The notes under the pieces: generated by a model | What the model saw: only the letters and a program-made list of their open reading frames with translations | Told to the model about the DNA's origin: nothing | Databases searched by the model: none | Origin: Seongchinamella unica | GTDB lineage: Bacteria > Pseudomonadota > Gammaproteobacteria > Pseudomonadales > Halieaceae | Length of the DNA stretch: 64,000 nucleotides | Direction of reading: 5' to 3' | Assembly: GCF_004354085.1 (NCBI RefSeq) | Contig: NZ_SMSE01000001.1 | Location: 357,335 to 421,334, forward strand | Program-made: the position numbers and the translations under genes | Shown here: positions 2,249 to 29,098 of the stretch, piece after piece | How positions within the stretch are numbered: the stretch's first letter is position 1 | Layout of the letters: each line of letters opens with the position of its first letter

Positions 2249-2626
2249 TTAGATGACGCCTGCCGCTTCAGTGAGCAGATAACTGGCGAATATCAGCACA
2301 ATCGCACCGACAATCCCGAGCACACCCACTTCGGCCCATTCAGCCTTGCCCTGGCGAGCTTCATTGAATTTTGCAAAGCCCAAATACGCGATCCAGAGAA
2401 ATCCCAAAACCGCAATAGCCAACCCAAGCACCAGGCCACCATCTTTGATATAGCCCTGAATCAGGCCAATCCAGTCACCTGCTGGCGGACCGGTACTCGG
2501 CGCGACCGGCGTCGGCAATGCCGCCCAGAGCGGCAGTGGAACAGCCACCGCTGCCGCTGCCAATAACGCTCTGCGGATGGCAGCAGTTTTTTTGCTGAAA
2601 CTGATTTCTGTACTTGATGTACCCAT
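2249..2626 (-). CDS. ICE membrane protein, TIGR03745 family (pilin-like, DUF2976)
   Basis: A 125-residue protein with an N-terminal export signal (about residues 17-35, ending LWA-ALP) and two further hydrophobic segments (about residues 60-80 and 96-120). This is the layout of VirB2/TraA-type pilin precursors, and TIGR03745 holds that position in MPF_G operons. A proline-rich linker lies between the cleavage site and the first mature helix. It is followed by TIGR03750 38 bp downstream. That it forms the conjugative pilus subunit is an inference from topology and location. Confidence 0.87.
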   Translation of the reverse strand: MGTSSTEISFSKKTAAIRRALLAAAAVAVPLPLWAALPTPVAPSTGPPAGDWIGLIQGYIKDGGLVLGLAIAVLGFLWIAYLGFAKFNEARQGKAEWAEVGVLGIVGAIVLIFASYLLTEAAGVI

Positions 2627-2726
2627 AACAACTGTCCTCTTCTATAACGTTGATAAAAATGGGGACTATCCCCGCATCCCACTGCGATGCTCCGCCGCTT
2701 GCCCCTGCGGGACTTTCTCGATTGAC

Positions 2727-2957
2727 TCACCGCAAATAGAAACCCAACACCATCAAAACAATGCTTGCCCGCAGAGTACTCCAGGTCAGATCAAAGACCG
2801 TGGCATGCCCGTCCTGCCAGGCCCGAAATGCGCCTAAAGCCACCCAAATCACCCAAACAAACGCCAACACCAAAACCATCGACGCGATTGCCGTCAACAT
2901 GGTGGCTGGGGTAATACCGGAACCGGCTTGAAAAGCTGTTTGTTGTGCGGCGTTCAT
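2727..2957 (-). CDS. ICE protein, TIGR03758 family (DUF3262)
   Basis: A 76-residue, very hydrophobic protein with two membrane helices (about residues 20-45 and 55-75). It matches the small DUF3262/TIGR03758 family that always lies between RAQPRD and TIGR03745 in this class of ICE. It begins 8 bp after the RAQPRD stop codon and ends about 100 bp before the pilin-like gene, so it is in the same transcript. It may be another small pilin-like or scaffold membrane protein; no catalytic motif is present. Confidence 0.87.
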   Translation of the reverse strand: MNAAQQTAFQAGSGITPATMLTAIASMVLVLAFVWVIWVALGAFRAWQDGHATVFDLTWSTLRASIVLMVLGFYLR

Positions 2958-2965
2958 GACGAGAC

Positions 2966-3268
2966 CTATCGACGGTAATCGCCGCGCAATGGCGGAAATG
3001 AGCGAGGCTGGGCGCGGGGAGAATCAATGTGTGACTGAATGCCGTCCCGGATCTGCTTTAGGTCCTGACGCAGCCAGTCATAACGGAATCGGATACGGGA
3101 GTCTTGTTCAGCATTAGCCTCCGCCTGACTGATTAGCGGCTCGAGGGCATTGAGTTCATGGATGATTTTCGCCAGCGCCTCACGCTCAGCGTCTGCATCA
3201 GCGAACGCCGCCGGCGCGACGCACAAGCCTAGAATCAGAAATGTTGATGGCCAGAATTGGCGTTTCAT
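2966..3268 (-). CDS. RAQPRD family ICE protein (TIGR01690)
   Basis: A 100-residue secreted protein with a signal peptide (about residues 5-24, ending AFA-DA), an all-helical body rich in Glu and Arg, and near the C-terminus the sequence RAQPRSF, which is the signature that names the RAQPRD family; the usual final Asp is Ser here. The family is periplasmic and of unknown biochemical role, and occurs only in PFGI-1-class conjugation operons. In sister elements it directly follows TIGR03747. Here the two are separated by the 6 kb cargo, making this gene the left border of the insertion. Confidence 0.92.
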   Translation of the reverse strand: MKRQFWPSTFLILGLCVAPAAFADADAEREALAKIIHELNALEPLISQAEANAEQDSRIRFRYDWLRQDLKQIRDGIQSHIDSPRAQPRSFPPLRGDYRR

Positions 3269-3420
3269 GGCACTGCTGCTCCCGTGTTTTGTTACGGGGC
3301 ATAGTGCGAGAATCAGAGGCCGTGGACGATGGGAAATCTATTCGGTGGGTGGGGTGGTTTTTCTAGCTGTTGTTGCAAACTCTACTCAGTGCCAAAATAG
3401 AGGACATGTCTTTCTTGTCG

Positions 3421-5691
3421 TTACAATTTTATGAGATTAGAAAAAAGGCTTTTCAAATCATCGTCAGTAAATTTTTCCTCTGTGTGATTTCTCCTCGGAA
3501 AAATGGAAGCGCTCTGTTCAGATGGTTCTACTTCTTCTAGTTCAAGTATGCGATCTTGAACAACAGATTTGGCGTGATCAGAATTATGCCCCGTAATTTT
3601 TGCTAGTAAAGCCAAAAAATCAATATGCTCAGCAAGCTCACTCTCTGTATCCAAATCACTGATAGCATCTCGCGTTTCTGTAAATTCATAGCAAACTGCA
3701 TTATCAACAGCTTCGTCGACATGAGCAGATTCACCATGAGGTAAAAATTCATTGATTTTTTCGATAATTGATACTAACTCATCTGAAGGAACGCCTTGGT
3801 CAAACACACTGACGATTTTATCCTCTATGGCGAGCAATAGCTGGGATTTTAGTCGATGATCGTCATGGATGAAATTGTAGGCTTTCCAATGCAATTCAGG
3901 TAGTAACGGCCCATCCCGCCAAGAGACCAAATCAAGAGATTTGGATTGAATGAGATTAAGCATTTTTTCAAGAAAATAGTCATCATGAGTGCACTCCCAC
4001 CATCCGAAGAGCAAATCTGCCCTTTCTGAAAGTGGAAGATCGTCGTGATGGAGGGATACAGATCCATTTTTCTCCACTCGACTATATGTTGGCGTCGCAC
4101 TTATATCACGGGCGAAACCCTTAAAACATAATGCAAAGAACTGATTTTCTTCGTCGCGTGTTCCAAACACATCTGTTATATGTTGCCATAAATTCTCTGC
4201 CCAGTCGGAACGGCTCGCAGCGTTCGGTAATAAACTTAAAAACTCTCGGTTAGTGAGATATGATCTAAGGAAGTCTCTGACAGAGGGGTTAACAAACGTA
4301 ACCGTGCCACCTACAATCGAAATAAAACCTGACTCTAATGACCGCAAAGCTTCTTCAAAGTCATTCGGTTCAATTGGTTGCGAATAGAATAGGCATACTG
4401 CTCGATGCAGTCCTAAGTAATTACCTCTCAGAATTTCTATTCCCTGCCCATATTGACTACCAAAAAATAGAGTGACTAGTAGATTCTGACACTTCATATT
4501 TAGAGTTCTAAACGGCTTACTCCAAATAAGATTTGGGTTCTGCAAGGAAGAGTAGATATATTGGGGGTACTCTTCTGGCTCAACATTATCGAGACAGTCA
4601 CTGGAAACTGATGCGATAACACGGGGATTATAGTTTTTATGGTCTACAATTTTTCCAAGCCAATCCCCTTTTAGTATGGATACAAAGTGCTGCTGAGAAA
4701 GCCCTGATACCAATAAATGATTAAAAAAGATATGCGACTTTAGTTTTCGCGTGTATGCACCAACATCCAGTAAATATTTGGATAGTTGAAGTCGTCGATC
4801 GTCAACGTGATCGGAAAGTCGTCTCGCTTCCTCAAAAATGTGCGCCCTTGTGGTAAGAACAAACCTTGCGTTCTTAGACCTCCTTACGCGTTTAACAAAA
4901 GTTGATAGTGCGGTATCACGCTGAAGAAGAGACTGTCGATCAAGCTCAATTCGGCCAAGAAAATCATCAAAGAAAAATATTGTTGGCCTTTCATCTTCAA
5001 TTTTTGTAAATCCATCCTCCAGCGAGCTTATTGCATAAAATCTCCATCCGTCATTTAAGTACTTGTAGGCAACCATTTTCGCTAACGTTGTTTTCCCTAC
5101 ACCTGGAGGACCTGAAACAATCAGTATTTTTTCTTTTTCTAATTTGTCTATCGCTTCTTCAAAACTTGGATTGCGCGCATAAACTTTGAGGTCTTCCAAA
5201 ATCTCGGACTTGGTTGATTGAGTGAAGGCTTCAAGACCGGACTGCAAAATTCGTTCAATGACGGCAGCGCTAGACATCCATAGCTTTACATTTGACTTCT
5301 CTATTTCTGGGTTTCGCCTTAAAGCCGCTTCGATATCCTCACGCCCCCAAACGTCATCTGATTGCAATAGTACATTTCCGAAAATACGGGAAAGATCATC
5401 GCTTCTTTTTGGAGTTAATGACTGCGATGTAAAAAACAAGTAGCGTTTTGGCGCAAGTTCTATAATATTTTCCATCTCCTTTCTAGCAGCTTTTTTTAGC
5501 GCTGAAAATGTTGACCCCTCATAATGTTTACACTGCAGTATAACTGTCCCTGTACCCAGAGAATGACGACCATCAATACCACCGTCAGGTCCGGGGCCAA
5601 ATGCAGAAAATCGCTGTCCAGTTTCAACCTGTGCAATGTCACGGCACAAATCTTCAAAATCAATAGGGGAAAGATTTTCTAGTTGGGACAT
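3421..5691 (-). CDS. Mrr-type nuclease fused to STAND NTPase; candidate anti-phage effector
   Basis: A 756-residue protein. Residues 1-125 form a PD-(D/E)XK restriction-endonuclease-like domain of the Mrr type: it starts with the typical DFEDLC helix, then GGID with Asp40, and QCK with Gln53 and Lys55 as active-site residues. Residues about 165-310 form a P-loop NTPase: Walker A GPPGVGKT (194-201), Walker B IFFFDDF (238-244), and a VLTTR sensor strand (278-282), matching the nSTAND3 type. The remaining 440 residues look alpha-helical and may be the sensor. STAND NTPases fused to nucleases are known bacterial immune proteins that detect phage proteins and then degrade DNA. The gene is AT-rich compared with the ICE, a sign of separate origin. 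It lies 85 bp downstream of the OLD gene, same strand. Whether both work together is unknown. Confidence 0.82.
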   Translation of the reverse strand: MSQLENLSPIDFEDLCRDIAQVETGQRFSAFGPGPDGGIDGRHSLGTGTVILQCKHYEGSTFSALKKAARKEMENIIELAPKRYLFFTSQSLTPKRSDDLSRIFGNVLLQSDDVWGREDIEAALRRNPEIEKSNVKLWMSSAAVIERILQSGLEAFTQSTKSEILEDLKVYARNPSFEEAIDKLEKEKILIVSGPPGVGKTTLAKMVAYKYLNDGWRFYAISSLEDGFTKIEDERPTIFFFDDFLGRIELDRQSLLQRDTALSTFVKRVRRSKNARFVLTTRAHIFEEARRLSDHVDDRRLQLSKYLLDVGAYTRKLKSHIFFNHLLVSGLSQQHFVSILKGDWLGKIVDHKNYNPRVIASVSSDCLDNVEPEEYPQYIYSSLQNPNLIWSKPFRTLNMKCQNLLVTLFFGSQYGQGIEILRGNYLGLHRAVCLFYSQPIEPNDFEEALRSLESGFISIVGGTVTFVNPSVRDFLRSYLTNREFLSLLPNAASRSDWAENLWQHITDVFGTRDEENQFFALCFKGFARDISATPTYSRVEKNGSVSLHHDDLPLSERADLLFGWWECTHDDYFLEKMLNLIQSKSLDLVSWRDGPLLPELHWKAYNFIHDDHRLKSQLLLAIEDKIVSVFDQGVPSDELVSIIEKINEFLPHGESAHVDEAVDNAVCYEFTETRDAISDLDTESELAEHIDFLALLAKITGHNSDHAKSVVQDRILELEEVEPSEQSASIFPRRNHTEEKFTDDDLKSLFSNLIKL

Positions 5692-5776
5692 GGTTTTAAC
5701 GCTTCTTCCAATAATTTACGGCAATTTTCCGCTTTCTGTATTTACTGATAACTACAGGTGCATGTTCTAAAACCTA

Positions 5777-7609
5777 CTATTCAACCAAAGCAATTAATTT
5801 CTCTGCCAGCTCAATCAGCTCCGATTTCTCAACCCCGCTATCATCGTACTTTGATTGCTCAATAATTTTTGCGGCACACATAGATGGCCAAAAACGATCA
5901 ATTACATCGTCAGGCTTCATCCCCACCGCATTTCCAATAATCTTTTTAGCGTCACAGGTATTAGTGAATGTAACCTCTGCTCCAGATTTATCCTTAATCA
6001 AGTCTTTGCAGAGATAATTTTCGATCTCACGTTTACGAGTGGAATAGAACGCCCTACCTTGTGCTTCTACTTCAGCTTTACGTTTTTGAATAGACTTAAC
6101 CTGCTCCGGACTACCGCCAAGATCTGAATCGAGAAAAACGCACCACGGCAACCCCAGATCGTCAGCTAGCTTCAGGGTCACCCAGTGCTTAACATTTCCG
6201 CTACCTCCTGTTTGAAGAGGAACTATCCCAGCTTCCTCCAAGCTGGCTGCAATATGTCCAGCATCTCTCAGAGTTGTGGTTGTATGACGCAAGAAGGTTA
6301 CGTCTGACTTCCCCTCCACCAGTACAACACCTTTGGCACGCTCCATACCGGTTTCTGGCAGTACACCAAGACTTTCGGCAGCTTCTTTCAGCACCGTATC
6401 ACATGGCATTCTAATTATTGGAGAACCATCGAAATTCTTAGTGACGTAGCGAACGCCTTCAATTGGAATCAATCCGGCCAAGGCAGGCACATGCGTAGTC
6501 ACCAGGATCTGTCGATTGTCTTGATTGGCTAAATCAAGCAATGCCTTCATCAGCATAATCTGGTAGTTGGGGTGCTGAGATGTCTCAGGCTCTTCAATGG
6601 CGTAGATTACTTTTCGATTTGATCCCTCCATGGCTTTTTCAGCCTCCGCACGAAAGAAATTCAAAAGAATTAAACGACGCACTCCGCTGCCGCGTTTGTT
6701 AATAGGAATGCCGTTCTCACCATCCAATGTAAAGCTAAACGTCCATTTGGGCTTATCTTTAAATCGGGGCCTTAATTCGTTTGCCAGCTCTGGCGCCATC
6801 TCTCGTAACTTCCCCAGTGTTCGATTGGCGACATCGAGTACGCTTTGTTCAATCTGCATTTCGAGGGCAGAAATCTGCTCCTGTAGTGTAGCTTGAGCCT
6901 CCTTCACCGCCTGCTGGAGAGGATTTTTGGCTTCAGCGTCGCCATCACTACTTTCGCGGTCAGCTTTAAATAGCGCAAATATCGGCAATTGATCTTGAAT
7001 TTTAGCCCAAACTGATTTTCCCTCCGTCGACAACCCCTTATCAACGTCCAATAGTGTTTCAGTGAGATTTAGTGGTTGAGCGGCATCTCGAATGGCCTTG
7101 CGCCAGTGAGATGCCACGCGTTTGTCGACAACAGCACCTTCAATACCACGATCTTGACCAAGCTTTTTTAATTCCGCAATTTTTAGGCCAAGCATATTGT
7201 TTAAATCGTTATCGACGGGATGTTGGCATCGAATGCAGGTTTTATCGGGCTTACCGGATGTGGTTGCTTTGAAGATCTTTACAACTTCAATGCAACCTTC
7301 TGTATTAAGCAGTAGCTCATCGGCTAATGTGGTCTCAACATTTTCATCTAGAATGAGGCTATCAGGAAGCTCATCGAATACGCAGGTTATCTCAAAGTGA
7401 CTTTCACCTGCTTCTAATCGGAAGCAGTTTATGTCGTTTTTGTCCGCCTTAGCACCATCCGTTTCAAAGAATATAGCCAATGCCTCCAATATGGTGGATT
7501 TTCCAAAGTCATTTCGTCCCACAATACCAGTCATTGCTTCATCAATAGGTATAATGGTCGTATCTTGATATCCTCTAAAATTGGTCAGCTTAACGGATTT
7601 CAAACGCAT
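5777..7609 (-). CDS. OLD-family ATPase with TOPRIM nuclease domain
   Basis: A 610-residue protein with an ABC/SMC-type ATPase head and a C-terminal TOPRIM domain, the architecture of OLD (overcoming lysogenization defect) nucleases, the family of GajA. Visible motifs: Walker A GRNDFGKS (31-38), a signature-like RGSGVRRL (306-313), Walker B YAIEEPE (336-342), H-loop VTTH (370-373), then TOPRIM VLVEGKSD with Glu432 and Asp436, and FLDSD with Asp494 and Asp496. A coiled segment (about 225-260) is predicted in the ATPase insertion. No GajB-type helicase, reverse transcriptase or PtuB-type HNH gene is adjacent. The next gene downstream is the Mrr-STAND fusion. A stand-alone OLD defence protein or part of a two-gene system are both possible. 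Base composition is AT-rich like its neighbour. Confidence 0.87.
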   Translation of the reverse strand: MRLKSVKLTNFRGYQDTTIIPIDEAMTGIVGRNDFGKSTILEALAIFFETDGAKADKNDINCFRLEAGESHFEITCVFDELPDSLILDENVETTLADELLLNTEGCIEVVKIFKATTSGKPDKTCIRCQHPVDNDLNNMLGLKIAELKKLGQDRGIEGAVVDKRVASHWRKAIRDAAQPLNLTETLLDVDKGLSTEGKSVWAKIQDQLPIFALFKADRESSDGDAEAKNPLQQAVKEAQATLQEQISALEMQIEQSVLDVANRTLGKLREMAPELANELRPRFKDKPKWTFSFTLDGENGIPINKRGSGVRRLILLNFFRAEAEKAMEGSNRKVIYAIEEPETSQHPNYQIMLMKALLDLANQDNRQILVTTHVPALAGLIPIEGVRYVTKNFDGSPIIRMPCDTVLKEAAESLGVLPETGMERAKGVVLVEGKSDVTFLRHTTTTLRDAGHIAASLEEAGIVPLQTGGSGNVKHWVTLKLADDLGLPWCVFLDSDLGGSPEQVKSIQKRKAEVEAQGRAFYSTRKREIENYLCKDLIKDKSGAEVTFTNTCDAKKIIGNAVGMKPDDVIDRFWPSMCAAKIIEQSKYDDSGVEKSELIELAEKLIALVE

Positions 7610-7789
7610 ACATAATTTCCTTATTTAGAGCTCGCAGTACAAAGATTTTGAACCGTTCTTGAGTCCACTTTCTACAGATTTTTATTAAGCGAAAAAAATC
7701 CTAATGCCCGCATTGAGTTACGGATTCAGTCGATCGTTGCAACTGGGCACTTTTATCTATTGCCAAGTATCATGAAGCAAGGTCTAAAT

Positions 7790-8380
7790 CTATTCTATAT
7801 TTCCACTACGTCTCATCACCTCTATAACCCGCGCTGCCTGTTTGCTATCACTCGCCGCCCCATGAACCCCATCCTTGTGTGCCCTGAGATCCTCAACGCC
7901 AAGTTCTTTTGTCAACGTGTCTAAAGACGGACCTCTTGAACTACTTTTGAGATCCATGGCCTCCGCCCAAGGAATCGCGGCTTTCTGGCTGCAAAAAACC
8001 CCCTGTATGCCTGGCATTTCCAGATCGTACCGCTCAACATGATCAAGCAGGATGGGCCAATCGAAACTCGAGTTATGAATAATGGCCAGCTGATTTTTCA
8101 GGTACTCGGCGATCTGGTTCCACTGCGATTCAAAGGATTCAAAGTTGGCTGCTTGCTCATTGGAAATGCCATGTATTGACTGCGCTTCTTCCGAGATGGG
8201 TTTGTGCGGTCGCGTTTCAAATTCTACGGATTTAGCAATCTCTCTCTGCCTCACCACCGTGATCCCAAGCGTCACGATGTCCGGCAGGCCATTTTCGTCA
8301 GGGAGTCCGGTGGTTTCGGTATCGAGTACGATGTAATCGTCTGGTAGTTGGGTAAAGACCCACAGTAACTCTTTATACAT
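7790..8380 (-). CDS. DEDDh 3'-5' exonuclease (DnaQ-like), third gene of the RES/Xre operon
   Basis: About 196 residues. All DEDDh exonuclease motifs are present: Exo I LDTETTG near the N-terminus, Exo II NSSFDWPIL in the middle, and Exo III HGAASD near the C-terminus with the HxAxxD pattern. The protein therefore should be an active 3'-5' exonuclease on DNA or RNA. I chose the ATG at 8380 because AGGAGG is exactly 8 bases upstream; a GTG and an ATG slightly upstream (8389, 8386) overlap the toxin stop codon but lie too close to that site. It starts 5 bp after the RES toxin gene, so all three genes share a transcript. A nuclease as a third gene is not a normal part of RES/Xre systems. Confidence 0.85.
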   Translation of the reverse strand: MYKELLWVFTQLPDDYIVLDTETTGLPDENGLPDIVTLGITVVRQREIAKSVEFETRPHKPISEEAQSIHGISNEQAANFESFESQWNQIAEYLKNQLAIIHNSSFDWPILLDHVERYDLEMPGIQGVFCSQKAAIPWAEAMDLKSSSRGPSLDTLTKELGVEDLRAHKDGVHGAASDSKQAARVIEVMRRSGNIE

Positions 8381-8385
8381 TGCCA

Positions 8386-9078
8386 TCACCTCCTGCCACT
8401 GCCGTCCAGGGATTCAACATTCACGACTGACCCCTGTTCATAGTGGTAACGCAGATAACGCCAGTGAATGGCATCCGAGAGTGCCTTGGGACGCATCACC
8501 CCATAGCAATCACCTTCCGCTCTTACACTTTGGTAGTGCACGCCGAAGCTTTTTGCATCTCGCAACGCGTACCCGAGCTGTTGCCCTACTGCGTATTCAT
8601 GGGGGTCGTAGATTGCGTCACCAATCAGGTGTCGCACATCATGCAGGGTTGTCGGCCCAAGCTGTGCGCGGATAACGCGCATTTCCTGGGTGGTTTGTTC
8701 GATTCTTGATTCCCGCAGAAAGCGTGCGCTATGAAAAGACGACTCAGCGATGGCCACATCCTCGTCAGCGGTGCAGTAGTAGATACCGAAATCCCGGTTG
8801 AAGCGTCCGCCGCGAGCATCGACCGGTGGGTGGGTAAACGCCGCCATGATCCAGGATGCGCCATCGCCGTACACCCGGTCTTCCGGCGGCACCAAGCGAA
8901 TATCTCCCACTTCATCGCGCAACCTGGGGTTAGTCAGGGACTCGACAGCATAGAGCACGTCCCAATCCTGCGGATTAGAGACGCGTTCAAACAGGTGGAT
9001 CTGCGGATAGCGCGACAGAATGACCCGATAGACCGGTTCATCTGCCTCGCTACTAGGTAGTGTATCGATATCGATCAC
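8386..9078 (-). CDS. RES-domain toxin (NAD+-degrading type)
   Basis: A 230-residue protein with a RES domain over about residues 15-215. The conserved features are visible: Arg in GGRFN (Arg92), a Tyr pair (100-101), and Glu112 followed by Ser, then a C-terminal Tyr/Ser-rich end. RES toxins of RES/Xre modules degrade or phosphorolyse NAD+, or in some cases ADP-ribosylate targets, and stop growth. The start overlaps the antitoxin stop by 4 bp (ATGA), the usual arrangement. Length is within the family range though somewhat long. Whether it is a plasmid-type addiction module for ICE maintenance or a phage-response module is not decided by sequence. Confidence 0.9.
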   Translation of the reverse strand: MIDIDTLPSSEADEPVYRVILSRYPQIHLFERVSNPQDWDVLYAVESLTNPRLRDEVGDIRLVPPEDRVYGDGASWIMAAFTHPPVDARGGRFNRDFGIYYCTADEDVAIAESSFHSARFLRESRIEQTTQEMRVIRAQLGPTTLHDVRHLIGDAIYDPHEYAVGQQLGYALRDAKSFGVHYQSVRAEGDCYGVMRPKALSDAIHWRYLRYHYEQGSVVNVESLDGSGRR

Positions 9079-9476
9079 CAGCCACCCCGCTCCGAATCGA
9101 GGAAATTTCTGACTACGGCCAGGTCCACCACCTGCCCGGCCAGCAACCGATCCAGCGGTGCCGTACCATTGAACAGTGGGTTGTCATTGGGGGTTGCCAG
9201 CCACTGATCGGCCAGACCCTCGTCAGGCAACAGAATCTCCAGGGATTTGTAGATACCCAGGATATAACTGGCCCGTTCCAGCAGATCCCGCGTCAGCTTG
9301 GCCTTCTCCGGCTGGCTCTTCCAGTTGTAGAGGGTCTTCTCGTTGCTGAGCCCCAACAGGGTCATCTGCTGGGCGCCAGTCAGACGCCACTGGCTGAAAA
9401 TACGAAAAATCGCTGGCAGCAGGGAACTGGTGACACTGGAACCACGTTGCAGCAGTTGTTCGGCTTGCGCGATCAT
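9075..9476 (-). CDS. Xre/MbcA/ParS-type antitoxin
   Basis: A 133-residue protein. The N-terminal half is a helix-turn-helix of the Xre type (about residues 25-75, with the MTLLGLSNEKTLYNW recognition region). The C-terminal half is the MbcA/ParS/Xre toxin-binding domain (about residues 80-130, including PNDNPLFNG and the RLLAG element). It binds and blocks the RES toxin encoded by the overlapping next gene, and represses the operon. The start codon at 9476 has a strong AGGAGGT ribosome-binding site just upstream. Two matching palindromes lie in the promoter and are the expected binding sites. Confidence 0.9.
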   Translation of the reverse strand: MIAQAEQLLQRGSSVTSSLLPAIFRIFSQWRLTGAQQMTLLGLSNEKTLYNWKSQPEKAKLTRDLLERASYILGIYKSLEILLPDEGLADQWLATPNDNPLFNGTAPLDRLLAGQVVDLAVVRNFLDSERGGW

Positions 9477-9500
9477 GATTACCTCCTGAACAGCATTTAG

Positions 9501-9552
9501 ACTGTATATTTACAGTGCTCAAATACAGCCTATCAAACTGTAATAGTACAGT
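9501..9552 (-). promoter_or_regulatory. Two identical palindromic operators of the RES/Xre operon
   Basis: Two perfect palindromes with the same arms, ACTGTA-N4-TACAGT, occur at 9501-9516 and 9537-9552, upstream of the antitoxin start. Their centres are exactly 36 bp apart. A further half-site TACAG lies between them near 9523. Two equal sites in front of an autoregulated Xre antitoxin are what cooperative repression would need. Binding by this antitoxin is inferred. Confidence 0.75.
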
Positions 9553-9560
9553 CAACTGTG

Positions 9561-10292
9561 TCAGAGATACTTTTTGAAGGTGCTAGCCGTGATGGTCACA
9601 GCGAAGGCGAAGGCCAGAGCGAACGGCAAGATGATCCAGGACGGGTGCAAGCTGAACGGTAGCGCCAGGTACAGCACCCAAGCCATGATGATCAGTGGTA
9701 TGGCGGCTTTCTTGGCGTAGTGGTAGACGAAAGAGCTTTCCCTGCCGCCGCCCCAACGCCGCAGGTCCCTCCGCACCAGTCCATCCACCAGCGCCACCAG
9801 CGTGAAAAGTCCAAATACTGGTGTGGCCAGAGCAAGAATAGCCAGGCGTACCGCGAAGACCTGGGTGATTTGCATCCCTGCCAGAACAAAGTCAGCTACC
9901 GGTCGGTAAAGCCGATGGAGCACCGGGCGCACGCCGGATTCTTCAATAGATGGAGCCTGCGTAATCCACTGGAGGAGATCGACAAACCCGGTCCACTCAA
10001 AGGCGAAGTAGTAGAAGCGCTCCGACAATTCACTGGCGAACTGCATGGGATGTTCGGTCAACCAACTGCGATGAAAGTCCGCGCCGAGGAACTGCAACTC
10101 ATTCACCAGCATCTGCCGGCTATGCGCTAGACCCTGTTCCTCCCACCAGAACACCATGCCAATCCACTCGATCAAAACGGAGAAGACCAGGGAGAGCAAT
10201 AGCCATTTAAAGCACTGGGCGATACCGGTGAGAATCCGGGAGAACATGCCCGGGCTTGCGACAGACCGGCGGGGATCGGCTGGTTCCGCCAT
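9561..10292 (-). CDS. ICE membrane protein, TIGR03747 family (DUF4400)
   Basis: A 243-residue inner-membrane protein with about four membrane segments (roughly residues 27-48, 140-162, 193-212 and 215-236) and a helical periplasmic section between the first two. It matches the DUF4400/TIGR03747 family, found next to the coupling protein in MPF_G operons and thought to assist it. It starts 1 bp after TraD ends. In related ICEs RAQPRD comes next; here the RES/Xre promoter starts immediately after its stop codon. The gene is the right border of the cargo insertion. Confidence 0.88.
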   Translation of the reverse strand: MAEPADPRRSVASPGMFSRILTGIAQCFKWLLLSLVFSVLIEWIGMVFWWEEQGLAHSRQMLVNELQFLGADFHRSWLTEHPMQFASELSERFYYFAFEWTGFVDLLQWITQAPSIEESGVRPVLHRLYRPVADFVLAGMQITQVFAVRLAILALATPVFGLFTLVALVDGLVRRDLRRWGGGRESSFVYHYAKKAAIPLIIMAWVLYLALPFSLHPSWIILPFALAFAFAVTITASTFKKYL

Positions 10293-10293
10293 C

Positions 10294-12456
10294 TTAAGGT
10301 GAATCGACCTGTTCAGATGAATCCGATGTGGTCTCAGACACCGCGTGCCACCAGTGATCGGTCACCCGATACCAATGATCGTTGGTGATGTAGCTGCGCC
10401 GCATCGCGTCGGCCATCGCTTCAAAATCGCTCGGTATGGCGGCATCCCCACGGCTATCCGGCAAGGGAATACGGATTTTCCAGAGCTGACCGCCCTCCAA
10501 TAGCGCGAAGGCCTGCCCTTTGGGTAGCGTGACCATATCAGCAGCGGTCAGCATGGGCACTTCCGAGACACTGATCCGATCTTCGTTACGGGACTTGAAG
10601 TCGACACCAGACCCGGGATCCGATGAATCATCGACGCCGGAAACACTCATCAGACTGAACACTTCGACCCTGGGCAACTGTTCGGTCAGCATGTCTGCCG
10701 TGTCTAGCTCCTTCACCCGCAGCATTAGCATCGTATTGAAGTTACCGGCCACCTGACCTGCCTTGGCCTTGCTGCCAATCCGCGCCTCCACATCCGACCA
10801 GGTCTGGGTGTAGGCCGTTACCTGAAACCCAGCTCCGCCCGCTTTGTTCAGCAACGGTACGAACTCATCACCGATCAGCTCATTGAACTCGTCGGCATGT
10901 AGGGAGATGGTCGGTAGTGTGGACATGGAGGACTGTCCGGGGCCGTGTCCGGACGCGTCCAGATCGCCGCCCCGCGCGTGTCCAGCCTGTTCGGACGCCA
11001 CGCCGTGTTTGTAAATATGGCCCGCCACTGACACGAGATCTGCAAACATGGAATTGCCCACCGCACTGGCCACCGTAGTATCGGTGAGTGCATCAAGCCC
11101 CACGTAGACAATCCCTTTGCGGCGCACCACATCCATCCATTCGAAGATGGGTCGTGCATCCTGCTCGTCTTGATAGTCCGGAGATATCAAGGCGGCGATG
11201 GTGCCGGTCGTGAGTTTTTCCATCAGCGGGCCGACGGAGCTGACGATCTTATCGAAATAAGTCTTGTCGTACTTGAACGCGGAAATAAGGCCATCCAGGA
11301 CGGGGTCGTAGATGACCCTCTCCTGCAACAACCGCATGCAGGCGATGGCTTCCATCGACCTTCCGCGCAGTGCATTGGGCAGATTGCGCTCCTTGATATC
11401 CGCTGCGCGTTCTTCGACCAGAGACGCCCAGGCGTCGATGCCTGCAATCGCCGCACAGTAGCCCGCATACTCCACAAACAGCGGTTCGATGTCGTTGATG
11501 TAACGGCGGATCTGTTGATAGTCCGGTCGACGTTTCAGCGCCACCAACGCTCGGGCAATAATATTGACGAAGCGCCAGGCGAACTCTTTGAATGCGGCAG
11601 AGTTACCCTCGTTGGGCAACTGGTTGGCAATACGGGTTGCGACCTCGGTAATACGGGAGAAATTCCCTATAGCGTTGTAGCGCGCCGATAGCTCCGGAAA
11701 ACCCAAATGAAACAAATAGAAATCGTCCAGACGATCGGCACGCTTGGCTTCGGCATAGATGCGGCGCAACAGATCTGCATCGCCTTTGGGGTCGAAGACA
11801 ATCACCACATCCCCGCGGTGGATGTCCTGGGTAATCAGCAGTTCCGCTAATCGTGTCTTCCCGACCCGGGTGGTGCCTAACACCAGTGTGTGTCCGACCC
11901 GTTCACCCAGATCCATCCACACGGGTTGCTCATGGGGTTCAACCGCGTGTAGAGCGGGCTTGCCGCCCACTGGCGGTAACGGCGCCAACAGGTTCCAGCG
12001 GGATCGACTGCGCAAGAGCCTCGCCAATAAGGTCAGCCCCGGTATCGACTCCCAGGCGACTTCCTTTTGCCGCGCCCAATGGTAAAGCGCACCCGGCTGA
12101 ACGTAACGCTGAACCTCGGGTTTCAGCGTGTCGCGTAGCCGCTGCGTGTGTTGCTGGGTCCAGCGAAAGCCTTTGCCCAGAAATAGTTTGTGCTGACTGA
12201 CAGGGACCCGATCGGCCGCTATTCGATACTCGGGTAAGCGTTTCATGTGACGCTGATAGCGCAACACACGCCAGGCTTGATGGCCCCGCCAGAGACCAAA
12301 CCCCCAAAAAGCCAGGCTGCTGGCGGCAGCAATACCCGGCGGCATCATCAGGGCCCACGGTGCAAGCAAGGCCAGTAAGCCTGCGGCGATCGCCGTGAAG
12401 CAGGACCATAACTCGACCGGCGGGCGAAGCAACGCCTCCATAGGATGGGCGCTCAT
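10294..12456 (-). CDS. traD: Type IV coupling protein TraD (SXT/PFGI class)
   Basis: A 720-residue coupling protein. Two N-terminal membrane helices (about residues 17-37 and 42-58) anchor it. The ATPase domain shows Walker A GTTRVGKT (194-201) and the strand VVIVFDPKGD (217-226), which carries the conserved DPKGD of SXT-type TraD proteins. A conserved SLHADEFNELIGDEF segment follows around residue 515. It brings the relaxosome to the secretion channel and pumps DNA. Its start overlaps the end of the TIGR03765 gene by 4 bp. Length is normal for the TIGR03743 family. Confidence 0.95.
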   Translation of the reverse strand: MSAHPMEALLRPPVELWSCFTAIAAGLLALLAPWALMMPPGIAAASSLAFWGFGLWRGHQAWRVLRYQRHMKRLPEYRIAADRVPVSQHKLFLGKGFRWTQQHTQRLRDTLKPEVQRYVQPGALYHWARQKEVAWESIPGLTLLARLLRSRSRWNLLAPLPPVGGKPALHAVEPHEQPVWMDLGERVGHTLVLGTTRVGKTRLAELLITQDIHRGDVVIVFDPKGDADLLRRIYAEAKRADRLDDFYLFHLGFPELSARYNAIGNFSRITEVATRIANQLPNEGNSAAFKEFAWRFVNIIARALVALKRRPDYQQIRRYINDIEPLFVEYAGYCAAIAGIDAWASLVEERAADIKERNLPNALRGRSMEAIACMRLLQERVIYDPVLDGLISAFKYDKTYFDKIVSSVGPLMEKLTTGTIAALISPDYQDEQDARPIFEWMDVVRRKGIVYVGLDALTDTTVASAVGNSMFADLVSVAGHIYKHGVASEQAGHARGGDLDASGHGPGQSSMSTLPTISLHADEFNELIGDEFVPLLNKAGGAGFQVTAYTQTWSDVEARIGSKAKAGQVAGNFNTMLMLRVKELDTADMLTEQLPRVEVFSLMSVSGVDDSSDPGSGVDFKSRNEDRISVSEVPMLTAADMVTLPKGQAFALLEGGQLWKIRIPLPDSRGDAAIPSDFEAMADAMRRSYITNDHWYRVTDHWWHAVSETTSDSSEQVDSP

Positions 12457-25790: not shown

Positions 25791-26033
25791 ATGGATGCTG
25801 GAACCCAAAACCGCCCAAGCAAGACATTAATAAATCGAAAAACACTTCTGGCGATGATCCCACTGTCAGATCGTGCCATTTTCAACATGGAAAAACGCGG
25901 CGACTTTCCCCGCCGAATCGTACTAACAAGTCGCAATGTTGCGTGGGACCTGGCCGAGGTCGAGGATTGGATTGAGTCGCGCATAGAGTCTGAGGATCCA
26001 GCACACCGTCCTGGATTTACTGCCGCTTCATAG
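25791..26033 (+). CDS. AlpA-like excisionase/regulator
   Basis: An 80-residue protein from the ATG at 25791 (the frame extends to 25674). It has the AlpA-type winged helix: LINRKTLLAMIPLSDRAIFNMEKRGDFPRRIVLTSRNVAWDLAEVEDWIESR, with the usual FPRR turn and W at the end. AlpA proteins switch on integrase genes or act as excisionases in P4-type islands. It converges on the integrase, with the two 3' ends overlapping by 17 bp. A recombination directionality role is likely by position. Confidence 0.85.
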   Translation: MDAGTQNRPSKTLINRKTLLAMIPLSDRAIFNMEKRGDFPRRIVLTSRNVAWDLAEVEDWIESRIESEDPAHRPGFTAAS

Positions 26034-27213
26034 TCCAATCGTCAATCATATCTGCCCAATCTTGTAACATCGCCGCTCGCTGCTCCCGGTACTCGGCTTT
26101 GTTATAGATCGCCCGCACGCCTTTCTGCTCGTGCGCAAGACACTTTTCAATCCAGTCGGTGTTATACCCAGCCTCGTGCAGTAGTGTGCTGGCGGTGCGA
26201 CGCAGGTCATGAGGACCGAATTTCCCAAGCGGTTCATCATTCTTTTGTGCCGCCTGGTAGGTCAATGCTAGAACGCGATTCATCGTTGCTGCACTCATAG
26301 GTAAGTCCGAATCATACCGAGAGGGAAGTACGAATTCAGAACCGCCGGCAAAGGTCTTGAGTGCGATAAAAATATCCAACGCCTGACGAGACAGAAACAC
26401 CAAGTGCGGATTGCGTCGTTTCATGCGCTCTTTTGGAATCGTCCAAAGCGCTTCGCTGAAACTGACCTCCGACCAGGTAGCGTTGGACAGCTCGGACTTC
26501 CTCACCATGGTCAGCAACAGCAACTTTATAGCAGCTCTATATTGAGGCGACGTTCCAACTCGGTCCATGTACCGATACATCAGACCAATCTCTGGAGGAC
26601 TCAAAGCCCGATCGCGAGGTTCAAACCTGGCGATACTGGTAGGCCGAACCAGCTCCGCAGGATTCTCTACTTTCTGTCCGCGCTCAATCGCCCAACGATA
26701 GACCTGCATTACCACCTCTCGGGCGTGAACTGCTGTTGCTGGCGCCCCTCTCTCTACTATGGCATCGGTTACAGTCCGAAGATCCTCATGCGTGATCTCA
26801 GATAATTTCTGATTGCCAAAGCGCTTCTTCAATTCACGGTTGTAGACTGACTTACGCATGTCACGCGTCGAATCAGCCATCTGATAGCCACGCATCCATT
26901 TCTCGGCCCATGCACCAAACGTTTCGGCATCCTTTACGCGCGTCTTGTCGCGTGCTTTTTCCCTGGCTGGTGACTTCCCTGCCGCAATCATCTTCTTTGC
27001 TTCGCTGACGCGTTCTCGCGCTTCTGAAAGCGTGACGCCACGCTTGCCATACCGGCCTATCGTCAGCGTCTCCTGTCGACCGCTAATCGAGTAGTTGTAT
27101 CTGAAGGAGATACCTCCCGCTGGTGTCACCGCCACATAGAGCCCATCGCGGTCGTTCACCTTGTAGAGTTTTTCCTGGGGCTTCAAATTTCGCAGCTTGG
27201 TATCCGTCAACAT
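26017..27213 (-). CDS. int: P4-type tyrosine integrase of the ICE
   Basis: A 398-residue integrase (ATG at 27213 with a GGGGGAGG ribosome-binding site; the frame runs to 27255). Residues 1-90 are the arm-binding domain of P4-type integrases (LTDTKLRNLKPQEKLYKVNDRDGLYV). The catalytic domain shows Arg in TMVRKSEL, HDLRR, AHEQ and the nucleophile Tyr in YNKAEY. It reads away from guaA and lies 307 bp from the guaA stop codon, so it must be the enzyme that inserted the element there. Length and motifs are complete. It is not closely related to the recombinase-like gene at 15,211. Confidence 0.95.
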   Translation of the reverse strand: MLTDTKLRNLKPQEKLYKVNDRDGLYVAVTPAGGISFRYNYSISGRQETLTIGRYGKRGVTLSEARERVSEAKKMIAAGKSPAREKARDKTRVKDAETFGAWAEKWMRGYQMADSTRDMRKSVYNRELKKRFGNQKLSEITHEDLRTVTDAIVERGAPATAVHAREVVMQVYRWAIERGQKVENPAELVRPTSIARFEPRDRALSPPEIGLMYRYMDRVGTSPQYRAAIKLLLLTMVRKSELSNATWSEVSFSEALWTIPKERMKRRNPHLVFLSRQALDIFIALKTFAGGSEFVLPSRYDSDLPMSAATMNRVLALTYQAAQKNDEPLGKFGPHDLRRTASTLLHEAGYNTDWIEKCLAHEQKGVRAIYNKAEYREQRAAMLQDWADMIDDWTMKRQ

Positions 27214-27237
27214 CACAAGTCCTCCCCCTGGGGAAAA

Positions 27238-27392
27238 AATACCATGATATTTCATGGCATATTTTTCTGATGATTCTTCTTTATTTTCAGGGACTTAATG
27301 ATTTTTAATACCATGAAACCACTGAATAACATGGCATGGTATTTTGTCGCAACCCTGATCCTGTGGGCGACAATACCATGATTTATACCATT
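27238..27392. repeat. Repeated AATACCATGA boxes at the integrase promoter
   Basis: The decamer AATACCATGA occurs at 27238-27247, 27307-27316 and 27372-27381. An inverted copy with one mismatch (GCATGGTATT) lies at 27334-27343, and weaker versions at 27251-27260 and 27385-27394. The boxes cover the space just upstream of the integrase. They look like binding sites for AlpA or the integrase. The sequence is unlike the neighbouring guaA gene. Confidence 0.65.
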
Positions 27393-27520: not shown

Positions 27521-27533
27521 TCATTCCCACTCG
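27521..27533. other. Right attachment site core at the guaA 3' end (proposed)
   Basis: Island-type base composition and repeats end exactly at the guaA stop codon. The last codons of guaA (minus strand GAGTGGGAATGA) are the place where other guaA-specific islands recombine, keeping guaA intact. The matching copy at the other end of the ICE would be outside the window, so the exact core and its length are not confirmed here. Confidence 0.6.
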
Positions 27534-29098
27534 ATCGTCGCTGGGGGTTTGGAGCTCACGTCATAAGTGACCCGTGAGACCCCGCTGATCTCGTTGATGA
27601 TGCGGTTCGATACCAGTTCCAGTAACTCATAGGGCAGATGCGCCCAGCGGGCAGTCATGAAATCAACCGTCTCCACCGCACGCAGGGCGATCACGTATTC
27701 GTAGCGGCGGGCATCGCCCACCACACCCACTGACCGGACCGGCAGGAACACGGCAAAGGCCTGGCTGGTTTTTTCGTACCATCCTGAGCGACGTAATTCC
27801 TCGATAAAAATGGCATCCGCTTCGCGCAACAGGTCCGCGTATTCCTTCTTGACCTCGCCGAGAATACGCACACCCAGGCCGGGGCCGGGAAATGGGTGAC
27901 GATACACCATGTCGTAAGGCAGCCCCAGTTCCAGGCCAATCTGGCGCACCTCGTCCTTGAACAGCTCGCGCAGCGGTTCCACCAGTTCAAAGGCCATGTC
28001 CTCTGGCAGTCCGCCCACATTGTGGTGCGACTTGATCACATGGGCCTTGCCGGTCTTGGCGCCGGCAGATTCAATGACGTCGGGATAAATGGTGCCCTGA
28101 GCCAACCATTTCACATCCTTGAGCCTGGTGGCTTGCTCGTCGAATACTTCGATAAAGGTGTTACCGATGATCTTGCGTTTGGCCTCCGGGTCAGCCTCGC
28201 CGGCCAGCTTGCCCAGGAACAGGTCCTCGGCATCGGCGCGAATCACCTTCACCCCCATATTGCGGGCAAACATATCCATTACCGCGTCGCCTTCGTGCAA
28301 ACGTAGCAGGCCATTGTCCACGAACACGCAGGTGAGCTGGTCGCCTATGGCCTTGTGCAGCAAGGCAGCGACGACCGATGAGTCAACGCCGCCGGAGAGG
28401 CCGAGCAGAACCTTGTCGCTGCCGACCTTTGCCTGCACCCTCTCCACCGCATCCTCGACGATATTGGCTGGCGTCCACAGCGGTTCACAGCCGCACTGCT
28501 CAAGCACGAAATGCTGGAAAATTCGCTTGCCCTGCAGGGTGTGGGTGACTTCGGGGTGGAACTGGATACCGTAAAAAGGCTGCTCACGGTGAGCCATGCC
28601 GGCGATGGGGCAACTCTCGGTCTCGGCGATGAGTTCGAAGTTGTCGGGTAACTCCACCACCTTGTCGCCATGACTCATCCACACATCCAGCAGGCCATTA
28701 CCCTGCTCGTCGATATGGTCGCGAATGTCATGCAGAAGCCCACCGTTGCCTACCTGGCGAATCTGGGCATAGCCGAACTCACTGATATTGGAACACGCCA
28801 CCTGGCCGCCGAACTGCTCGGCCATGGTCTGCATGCCATAACAAATGCCCAACACCGGCACTCCCAGCTCAAACACCACCTGCGGCGCGCGCGGAGACGC
28901 GGCTGCCGCTACGGACTCCGGCCCACCGGAGAGAATAATGCCTTTGGGGTCGTAGTCACGGATATCCTCCTCGCTCATGTCAAAAGCGCGGATCTCACTG
29001 TATACCCCCACCTCGCGCACGCGGCGGGCAATCAGCTGGGTGTACTGGGAGCCAAAATCGAGAATGAGGATTTTCTGGGCGTGAATGTCTGCGCTCAT
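27521..29098 (-). CDS. guaA: GMP synthase (glutamine-hydrolysing)
   Basis: A 525-residue, full-length GuaA, which makes GMP from XMP, glutamine and ATP in the last step of guanine nucleotide synthesis. The glutaminase domain (about residues 1-205) has GICYGM with the catalytic Cys and HPEVTHT with His/Glu. The synthetase domain has the P-loop LSGGVDSSV (about residue 236). The C-terminus ends PPATIEWE, the usual terminal sequence. The last codons form the ICE attachment site, but the reading frame and stop codon are intact. It follows guaB with a 183-bp gap. Confidence 0.98.

Follow-up and report, generated by a model that had tools for sequence, protein, structure and literature searches.

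An OLD-family nuclease gene and an Mrr-nSTAND3 gene are recurrent, facultative neighbors in a cargo slot of an integrative and conjugative element of Seongchinamella unica

A 64,000-nucleotide stretch of Seongchinamella unica DNA (contig NZ_SMSE01000001.1, positions 357,335 to 421,334, hereafter the window) carries, within an integrative and conjugative element (ICE), two adjacent minus-strand genes whose association is, as set out below, non-random and recurrent. The upstream gene (5777..7609, minus strand) encodes a 610-residue ABC ATPase/TOPRIM nuclease of the OLD family, which is recognized by Pfam and PADLOC and has the structure 6p74 as its best Foldseek match. The downstream gene (3421..5691, minus strand) encodes a 756-residue protein, here called MN (for "Mrr-nSTAND3"), in which an Mrr-type nuclease, an nSTAND3 NTPase and a helical C-terminus are joined and which PADLOC places in its family PDC-S73. 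A first-pass annotation, made from the sequence alone, had proposed that the two genes, on the same strand and 85 bp apart (5692..5776, as read from the sequence), form one new two-gene defense system, and the arrangement it described was found as given.

The domain content of both products is clear in Pfam, with AAA_15 (7.8e-71) and OLD-like_TOPRIM (2.5e-8) in OLD and Mrr_cat (3.3e-6) and nSTAND3 (1.3e-47) in MN. Complete active-site motifs, another element of the initial proposal, were confirmed in both by motif reading and, for MN, by alignment. In OLD these are the P-loop GRNDFGKST (residues 31-39, of which 31-38 are encoded at 7496..7519, minus strand), IEEPE (338-342) and TTH (371-373), followed in the TOPRIM part by VEG (431-433, with the TOPRIM glutamate Glu-432 encoded at 6314-6316), LDSD (493-496; 6122..6133, minus strand) and KRE (526-528). 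MN has Asp-36 and Asp-40 with QCK (53-55), that is, a D36-x3-D40...Q53-x-K55 arrangement (5527..5586, minus strand), together with the P-loop GPPGVGKTT (194-202; 5086..5112, minus strand), FFFDD (239-243) and TTR (280-282). Across an alignment of 43 sequences, residues Asp-36, Asp-40, Gln-53, Lys-55, Gly-197, Lys-200, Asp-242, Asp-243 and Arg-282 of MN are invariant. We take the listed motifs of both proteins to have active-site roles and, within MN, Asp-36, Asp-40, Gln-53 and Lys-55 to form the nuclease site, Gly-197 and Lys-200 to belong to the P-loop and Asp-242 and Asp-243 to the Walker B motif.

Within the 85-bp gap a purine-rich stretch, GGAAGAAG, precedes the MN start and resembles a ribosome-binding site as judged by eye; a promoter and terminator scan, which as a whole performed no better than chance, lists nothing between 5692 and 5776. 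Both genes are AT-rich compared with the element, as had been noted, with a G+C content of 40.7% for MN and 45.1% for OLD against 56-58% for the TraD, RES, Xre and RAQPRD genes and 49.7% for the exonuclease gene.

MN as a protein is not new. Its residues 5-659 match positions 7-662 of the 752 in the already listed PADLOC profile PDC-S73 (412.5 bits, E 1.2e-123), where the S presumably denotes a single-gene candidate; a literature search, with subscription journals mostly outside its reach, found no paper naming PDC-S73. A structure model built from 38 sequences (pLDDT 82.6, pTM 0.59) displays the long helical C-terminus that had been anticipated from the sequence. Its best Foldseek matches are Avs4 in complex with a phage portal protein (8dgf, E 3.7e-9) and, also at the top, the SIR2-STAND protein Avs5 (9jap, E 2.3e-8); template modeling scores are low, 0.17-0.36, for the top matches of both the MN and the OLD models, perhaps owing to differing domain placement. 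The layout of effector, STAND domain and helical repeat is common to MN and to Avs4 and Avs5, which are AVAST receptors of the nuclease-STAND or SIR2-STAND kind, and the portion of one report available to us gives Avs5, too, an nSTAND3 domain (PMC12931631). MN differs in having an Mrr effector in place of SIR2, and it is much shorter than Avs4. It has the Avs order of N-terminal effector, STAND NTPase and helical C-terminus, with a C-terminus that matches no named repeat family and with scores far below the curated Avs models (13.4 bits against a cut-off of 1500 for NCBIfam Avs4; 13.8 bits for PADLOC Avs4). By analogy of layout, MN most likely resembles Avs proteins in its working, yet it is not classifiable as one of them. 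Residues 3-218 (Mrr and linker) are also matched by PADLOC models for Argonaute-associated proteins (Aga_TIR-PNTD, 7e-49) and by plasmid proteins that carry a TIR annotation, so that this N-terminal part seems common to several effectors.

Relatives of MN were found in 6 of 369 genomes of the class and in 52 plasmid records (5 covering at least 80% of MN; 6 were read), and a pattern scan of species genomes gave at least 53 loci (loci are designated below by L and a number). Phage records gave two MN matches, one of them near full length, in unannotated fecal contigs, and six OLD matches; among viral contigs there was one MN relative (L087), whose three scanned neighbors include no Pfam-recognized ABC ATPase. 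No DNA match was found in E. coli genomes. One Leucothrix genome (G375) has two full-length MN genes, on contigs C4 (L113) and C14 (L029), 55% and 46% identical to that of the window, and neither has an adjoining OLD gene.

The OLD protein, an ABC ATPase with a TOPRIM domain bearing the acidic motif, falls within the definition of the OLD family. Its structure model (11 sequences, pLDDT 76.6) best matches the Thermus scotoductus OLD protein 6p74 (E 1.3e-17) and then GajA, and 6p74 is likewise the best sequence match in the Protein Data Bank. With stand-alone (Class 1) OLD nucleases it has in common an ABC ATPase and a TOPRIM domain in one chain, without helicase or reverse transcriptase. As far as the part of the source available to us goes, Class 1 OLDs are single genes away from other defense genes (PMC10568477); the window OLD is unlike them in its placement in a defense slot with the defense-type gene MN adjoining, while no helicase or reverse transcriptase is present and four plasmid relatives were read without MN.

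The absence of the usual OLD partners, another point of the first-pass annotation, was upheld. The adjoining genes encode a RAQPRD protein, a DEDDh exonuclease and a RES/Xre pair, and a profile scan of the neighbors found no UvrD helicase, reverse transcriptase or HNH gene. Several known systems were considered and rejected on this and similar grounds. Gabija (GajAB) has a comparable ATPase/TOPRIM protein, and OLD matches GajA profiles, but the UvrD-like helicase GajB is not beside it. PARIS has an AAA_15-type ATPase in common with it, and the best PADLOC match of OLD is a model named AriA (2e-58), which with its 373 positions looks like a general AAA_15 domain; however, the TOPRIM domain of OLD lies in the same chain, and none of the 8 proteins scanned is of the AriB type. 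A Class 3 (retron) OLD was set aside because the scanned neighbors include no reverse transcriptase and positions 2500-10300 have no match to any Rfam RNA family. IbfA is, in the part of its report available to us, an ATPase/TOPRIM defense gene of a Salmonella plasmid (PMC12111858); as an experimentally tested relative of OLD it was rejected, the best aligned piece being the P-loop region (29.6 bits) and not the full length.

The closest OLD relatives (69-72% identity) lie on four enterobacterial plasmids, these being the 4 read of the 448 matching plasmid records, and in the OLD tree the window OLD groups with these solo plasmid OLDs, apart from the other MN-linked ones. Away from MN genomes the OLD subfamily is rare: with its own genome excluded, it occurs in 5 of 368 class genomes at E values up to 1e-40 and, at E values up to 1e-50, in 1 of 397 genomes of the phylum. 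A few features of these relatives stand out. Those at L083, L084, L085 and L086 (458-518 residues) align over the ATPase part only and seemingly lack the TOPRIM domain; two OLD relatives have beside them, on the same strand, a gene for a 445-residue DUF2130 protein, a possible partner (L081, 10967-12301; L085, 7127-8461); and on two plasmids OLD is preceded, at a distance of 21-30 bp, by a gene for a resolvase-type recombinase (L009, 5344-5979; L010, 5413-5970).

The two genes make up the cargo of a defined slot. That they lie in an ICE was borne out by TraD (TIGR03754, E = 0), encoded at 10294..12456 on the minus strand, and by the RAQPRD-family ICE gene (2966..3268, minus strand; PF09686, TIGR01690), which forms the left border of the slot. 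On the right the border is the DEDDh exonuclease gene (7790..8389, minus strand; RNase_T, 4e-17), kept in sibling ICEs, and next to it stands the RES/Xre toxin-antitoxin pair (8386..9476, minus strand; PF08808, PF20432, PF09722), likewise part of the conserved right flank. DNA of this flank has a match in 14 of the 390 genomes searched within the order, the own genome included, and twelve sibling regions were drawn from 12 of the other 13, with seven readable at both flanks; these seven include L103 and L107, whose left flanks are remnants of 117 and 190 bp, and leave aside L108-L112, in which the left flank is absent or a contig edge is reached. Left homology stops at 3359-3362 in the five siblings with a full left flank and at 3365 and 3378 in the two remnants, and right homology resumes at 7738-7906 in all seven, which delimits a cargo block of 3361..7738 that differs from the siblings and holds OLD and MN. 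In its place PADLOC finds known systems in five siblings, namely Qat (L105), Avs3 (L106), Shango (L101), Mokosh (L103) and Drt3 (L107), and in two a single ATPase gene, LmuB-like in L102 and a 485-residue ABC ATPase in L100. In the nearest sibling, L105, flank identity is 94% and 89%, and all four Qat genes replace OLD and MN. OLD and MN thus form one cargo block, which corresponds to one defense system or gene in the slot of the siblings.

According to the part of the source available to us, GI-Hotspot 8, known from the Pseudomonas islands PAGI-2, PAGI-3 and LESGI-3, carries changing defense cargo between traD and RAQPRD (PMC12629846). The window slot fits this description, with variable cargo between the same two boundary genes; it differs in belonging to another ICE and in having, in addition, the conserved exonuclease-RES-Xre block on its flank. 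That block (7790-9476) is conserved to the right of the slot in five full and five truncated siblings. The lone ABC ATPase genes that fill the slot elsewhere lie at 11109-13607 in L102 (the LmuB-like gene, with no partner visible) and at 12641-14098 in L100. Further along the window, open reading frames that by eye resemble a tyrosine integrase (26017-27255) and guaA (27521-29098) suggest that the ICE is probably inserted at guaA and that it extends, at its other end, beyond the first position of the window.

To compare the proximity of OLD and MN with that of other defense genes, we searched families across the whole of 22 MN-bearing genomes and 6 plasmids, the genomes being a non-random set among the matches listed by the pattern scan, to which two were added. 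Genes with an AAA_15 stretch scoring 100 bits or more or an OLD TOPRIM above the cut-off were counted as OLD-class. Of the 15 genes in this class, 8 are no more than 5 kb from MN (7 of the 8 AAA_15 genes that reach 100 bits; 4 of the 10 TOPRIM matches), compared with 1 of 15 HSDR_N (HsdR) and 1 of 28 N6_Mtase control genes within 10 kb in the same genomes (Fisher p 0.007 and 0.0003), so that the adjacency count suggested in the first-pass annotation did reveal an excess. The excess persists without the window genome (7/14 against 1/14 and 1/25; p 0.016 and 0.0014) and when the related loci L035 and L040 are collapsed (7/14 against 2/43 pooled controls, p 0.0004), all of these tests taking genomes as independent. 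AAA_13 ATPases are also frequent near MN, with 9 of 14 at most 10 kb away, but one Rhodobacterales pair accounts for 7 of the 9. The narrower OLD subfamily was found in 5 of the 22 MN genomes, the own one included, always within 5 kb of MN; after two related locus pairs are collapsed, this becomes 2 of 19 other MN genomes against 6 of 765 background genomes (p 0.014), a comparison that sets Pfam-model searches of the MN genomes against searches of the background with the OLD protein and in which the two background samples (369 and 398 genomes) overlap partly. The number of first-look candidates scored per genome was at most 55 for AAA_15 (over half of the genomes had more), 31 for AAA_13 and 3 for the background searches with the OLD protein, and with such partial scoring genes remote from MN may have been overlooked; TOPRIM, HSDR_N and N6_Mtase candidates were all scored.

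These counts bear on the simplest explanation, namely that unrelated defense genes landed in one hotspot with no selected relation. Defense genes do cluster, sibling slots hold many unrelated systems, facultative neighbors of varying orientation are what a genomic island would lead one to expect, and other MN loci lie beside RNR, HipA, type ISP enzyme and housekeeping-like genes. Coincidence nevertheless seems to us unlikely, given that the HsdR and N6-methylase genes of the same genomes have no such linkage.

A second comparison, of immediate neighbors, argues in the same direction. Taking as neighbor the nearest open reading frame of at least 200 codons on each side and calling ABC-type ATPases by Pfam, we found such ATPases at 10 of 43 neighbor positions, in 10 of 22 loci, of the close MN clade. 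The adjoining ATPase is OLD at the window, L052, L035, L038 and L003, and another protein at L025, L032, L005, L006 and L037. At 4-9 kb from MN in the same loci each ABC family matches at most 1 of 38 proteins by Pfam, and phmmer finds one; in the divergent MN branch (28-36% identity) 1 of 34 neighbors is an ABC ATPase by both methods, giving p 0.006 and 0.011, or, without the window (9/41 in 21 loci), 0.010 and 0.016. The Pfam families listed for these controls are the best 25 of 49 (4-9 kb) and the best 25 of 38 (divergent branch), the others matching one protein each, and phmmer is the less sensitive test because it recovered 8 of the 10 Pfam-called adjoining ATPases from other ABC proteins. 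The close set represents the lineage of L025 by that locus (omitting L024, L026, L027, L028, L002 and L007), L040 by L035, and L012 by L076, which lies at the same place, and L113 stands outside it; the divergent set of 20 loci omits L053, L056, L060 and the short-match loci L062-L075, and matches in genome G966 and on contig C71 of genome G922 were left out of the loci read.

This diversity of ATPases raises the idea that OLD, SMC-like, AAA_13-like, TrlF and YhaN proteins are interchangeable sensors or loaders plugging into MN. Besides the several families among the ten adjoining ATPases, the idea draws on kindred MN genes (86-90% DNA identity) with unlike partners, a 919-residue ABC ATPase at L025 but OLD at L052, and OLD at L035 but Wadjet at L041, and on a 5.38-kb block of MN and ABC ATPase common to L025, L026 and L028. 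It may be the boldest reading still open, but we hold it doubtful: 12 of the 22 close loci have no Pfam-recognized adjoining ABC ATPase, L113 has none by phmmer, MN already has a candidate sensor, and some of the neighbors are systems of their own, as with Wadjet at L041 and the OLD and UvrD-helicase pair (Gabija) that adjoins MN at L030. A more specific version, in which MN would act as a two-key receptor, a swappable ABC ATPase reporting the state of the DNA and the mobile MN confirming a phage product, is similarly speculative and in our judgment improbable. The same-strand combination of MN with a 900-919-residue ABC ATPase in Rhodobacterales (L025, 10001-15089, and its relatives L024, L026, L027, L028, L002 and L007) is an equally good candidate for a two-gene cassette. 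On the Thioclava plasmid of this group, L007, the match to MN is split in two, with about 10 kb between the pieces and an insertion sequence ahead of the second.

DNA comparisons show what travels with what. In Sphingomonas (L035) and Novosphingobium (L040), both Sphingomonadaceae, OLD and MN are common at ~96% identity with differing flanks and no other homology in the stretches compared, L040 having ~850 bp extra between the two genes; a pair common to two genera in different surroundings again counts against coincidence. MN also moves by itself. L052 has MN alone (with ~175 bp upstream) in common with L025, at 90.5%, and has OLD instead of the ABC ATPase; L041 has MN alone (with ~110 bp upstream) in common with L035, at 86%, with Wadjet genes beside it. 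OLD stands beside MN in separate branches of the MN tree (window, L052/L023, L035/L040, L038, L003). It precedes MN on the same strand at the window, at L038 and at L035/L040, whereas the two genes are convergent at L052 and L023, with an IS66 element between them at L023, and divergent at L003. At L076, with an MN of 61% identity, there is no OLD nearby; a ResIII gene is present, and another ABC ATPase lies ~4.7 kb away. The four plasmid OLDs have no adjoining MN, only resolvase or transposon genes or nothing relevant, and all six further genomic OLD loci lack MN, two of them adjoining a DUF2130 gene; OLD loci found without reference to MN and read were thus devoid of MN in 10 of 10 cases.

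An obligate two-component system, in which OLD would sense or gate, MN would be co-receptor or second effector and both would be required, has a mixed record. Together the genes occupy a slot in which each readable sibling has a single system or gene, they are present as a common block in Sphingomonadaceae, OLD precedes MN on the same strand in three lineages, and the convergent pairs at L023 and L052 are ~66-70% identical in the DNA of both genes where aligned. Against these stand the varying order, strand and spacing, the independent movement of MN, the OLD homologs without MN, the majority of close MN loci read without an adjoining OLD, and the position of L052 in the MN tree, where it groups with L025 although the ATPase partner there is another one (SH-aLRT 92, under the 95 mark). 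We consider the obligate system rather improbable, and less likely than a cassette of self-sufficient genes. Of the claim that the genes are one system, the non-random, recurrent linkage and the common block hold, and the fixed pair is not supported; adjacency and order are not conserved across genomes. In its strong form, to be abandoned if the genes were seldom together, the claim fails because the 10 OLD loci lack MN and 17 of 22 MN genomes yielded no AAA_15 gene with a score like that of the OLD subfamily.

We favor, at a probability of about 50%, the reading that OLD and MN make up a mobile cassette directed against phages, whose two genes are probably self-sufficient and have repeatedly been combined, here in the traD-RAQPRD slot. 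Judged by fold and family, MN should be a one-protein, Avs-like immune receptor, in which the helical C-terminus would recognize a phage product or activity, the nSTAND3 ATPase would then build oligomers driven by ATP, and the Mrr domains would cut DNA and abort the infection. Because effector, switch and candidate sensor are in one chain, like those of Avs receptors, MN should work alone. OLD holds ATPase and nuclease as stand-alone OLDs do, which fits self-sufficiency; it would sense an infection state and cut nucleic acid as a stand-alone ABC ATPase/TOPRIM nuclease. Each gene alone probably protects somewhat, and the repeated joining would reflect a favored combination, through wider coverage or synergy, and not mutual need. 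The movement of MN alone (L052/L025, L041/L035), its match to the presumably single-gene candidate PDC-S73 and the plasmid OLDs without MN speak for this autonomy.

Several observations weigh against the cassette of self-sufficient genes. That all 7 readable siblings have a single system or gene in the slot favors OLD and MN as one system, and the placement of OLD upstream on the same strand, at 85-525 bp (window, L035, L038) or 1449 bp (L040), is operon-like. The solo plasmid OLDs may be decayed genes, or they may depend on partners located elsewhere in the same cell. Third-position G+C is unequal (33.7% in MN, 41.9% in OLD), so that the two genes may stem from different sources. In 17 of the 22 MN genomes no AAA_15 gene scores like the OLD subfamily of the window, and at L113 phmmer detected no OLD or other ABC ATPase within ~8 kb, for which reason calling the combination favored may overstate the case. 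We found no phage test of MN, OLD or a close relative.

A literature search of titles and abstract beginnings, with the reach given above, did not find a paper on the OLD and MN pair; both families are known (OLD; PDC-S73). A pairing of OLD-type ABC ATPases with nucleases, of the PD-(D/E)XK or another type, is known from BREX and ABC-ATPase-anchored systems (PMC12839542), which, in the part of the source available to us, have in common with the window an OLD-type ABC ATPase gene next to a nuclease gene; there, however, OLD-ABC proteins are joined to simple nucleases in BREX, whereas here a TOPRIM-bearing OLD is joined to an Mrr-STAND receptor outside BREX.

Many candidate defense systems are called from adjacency only. 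The pair described here, with its adjacency measured against controls and a cargo slot, illustrates a middle category, neither an operon-bound system nor random neighbors. If the link reflects cooperation, it would offer a tractable case of how Avs-like receptors and OLD nucleases combine, and it would ask why a conserved nuclease-STAND protein keeps gaining different ABC ATPase neighbors.

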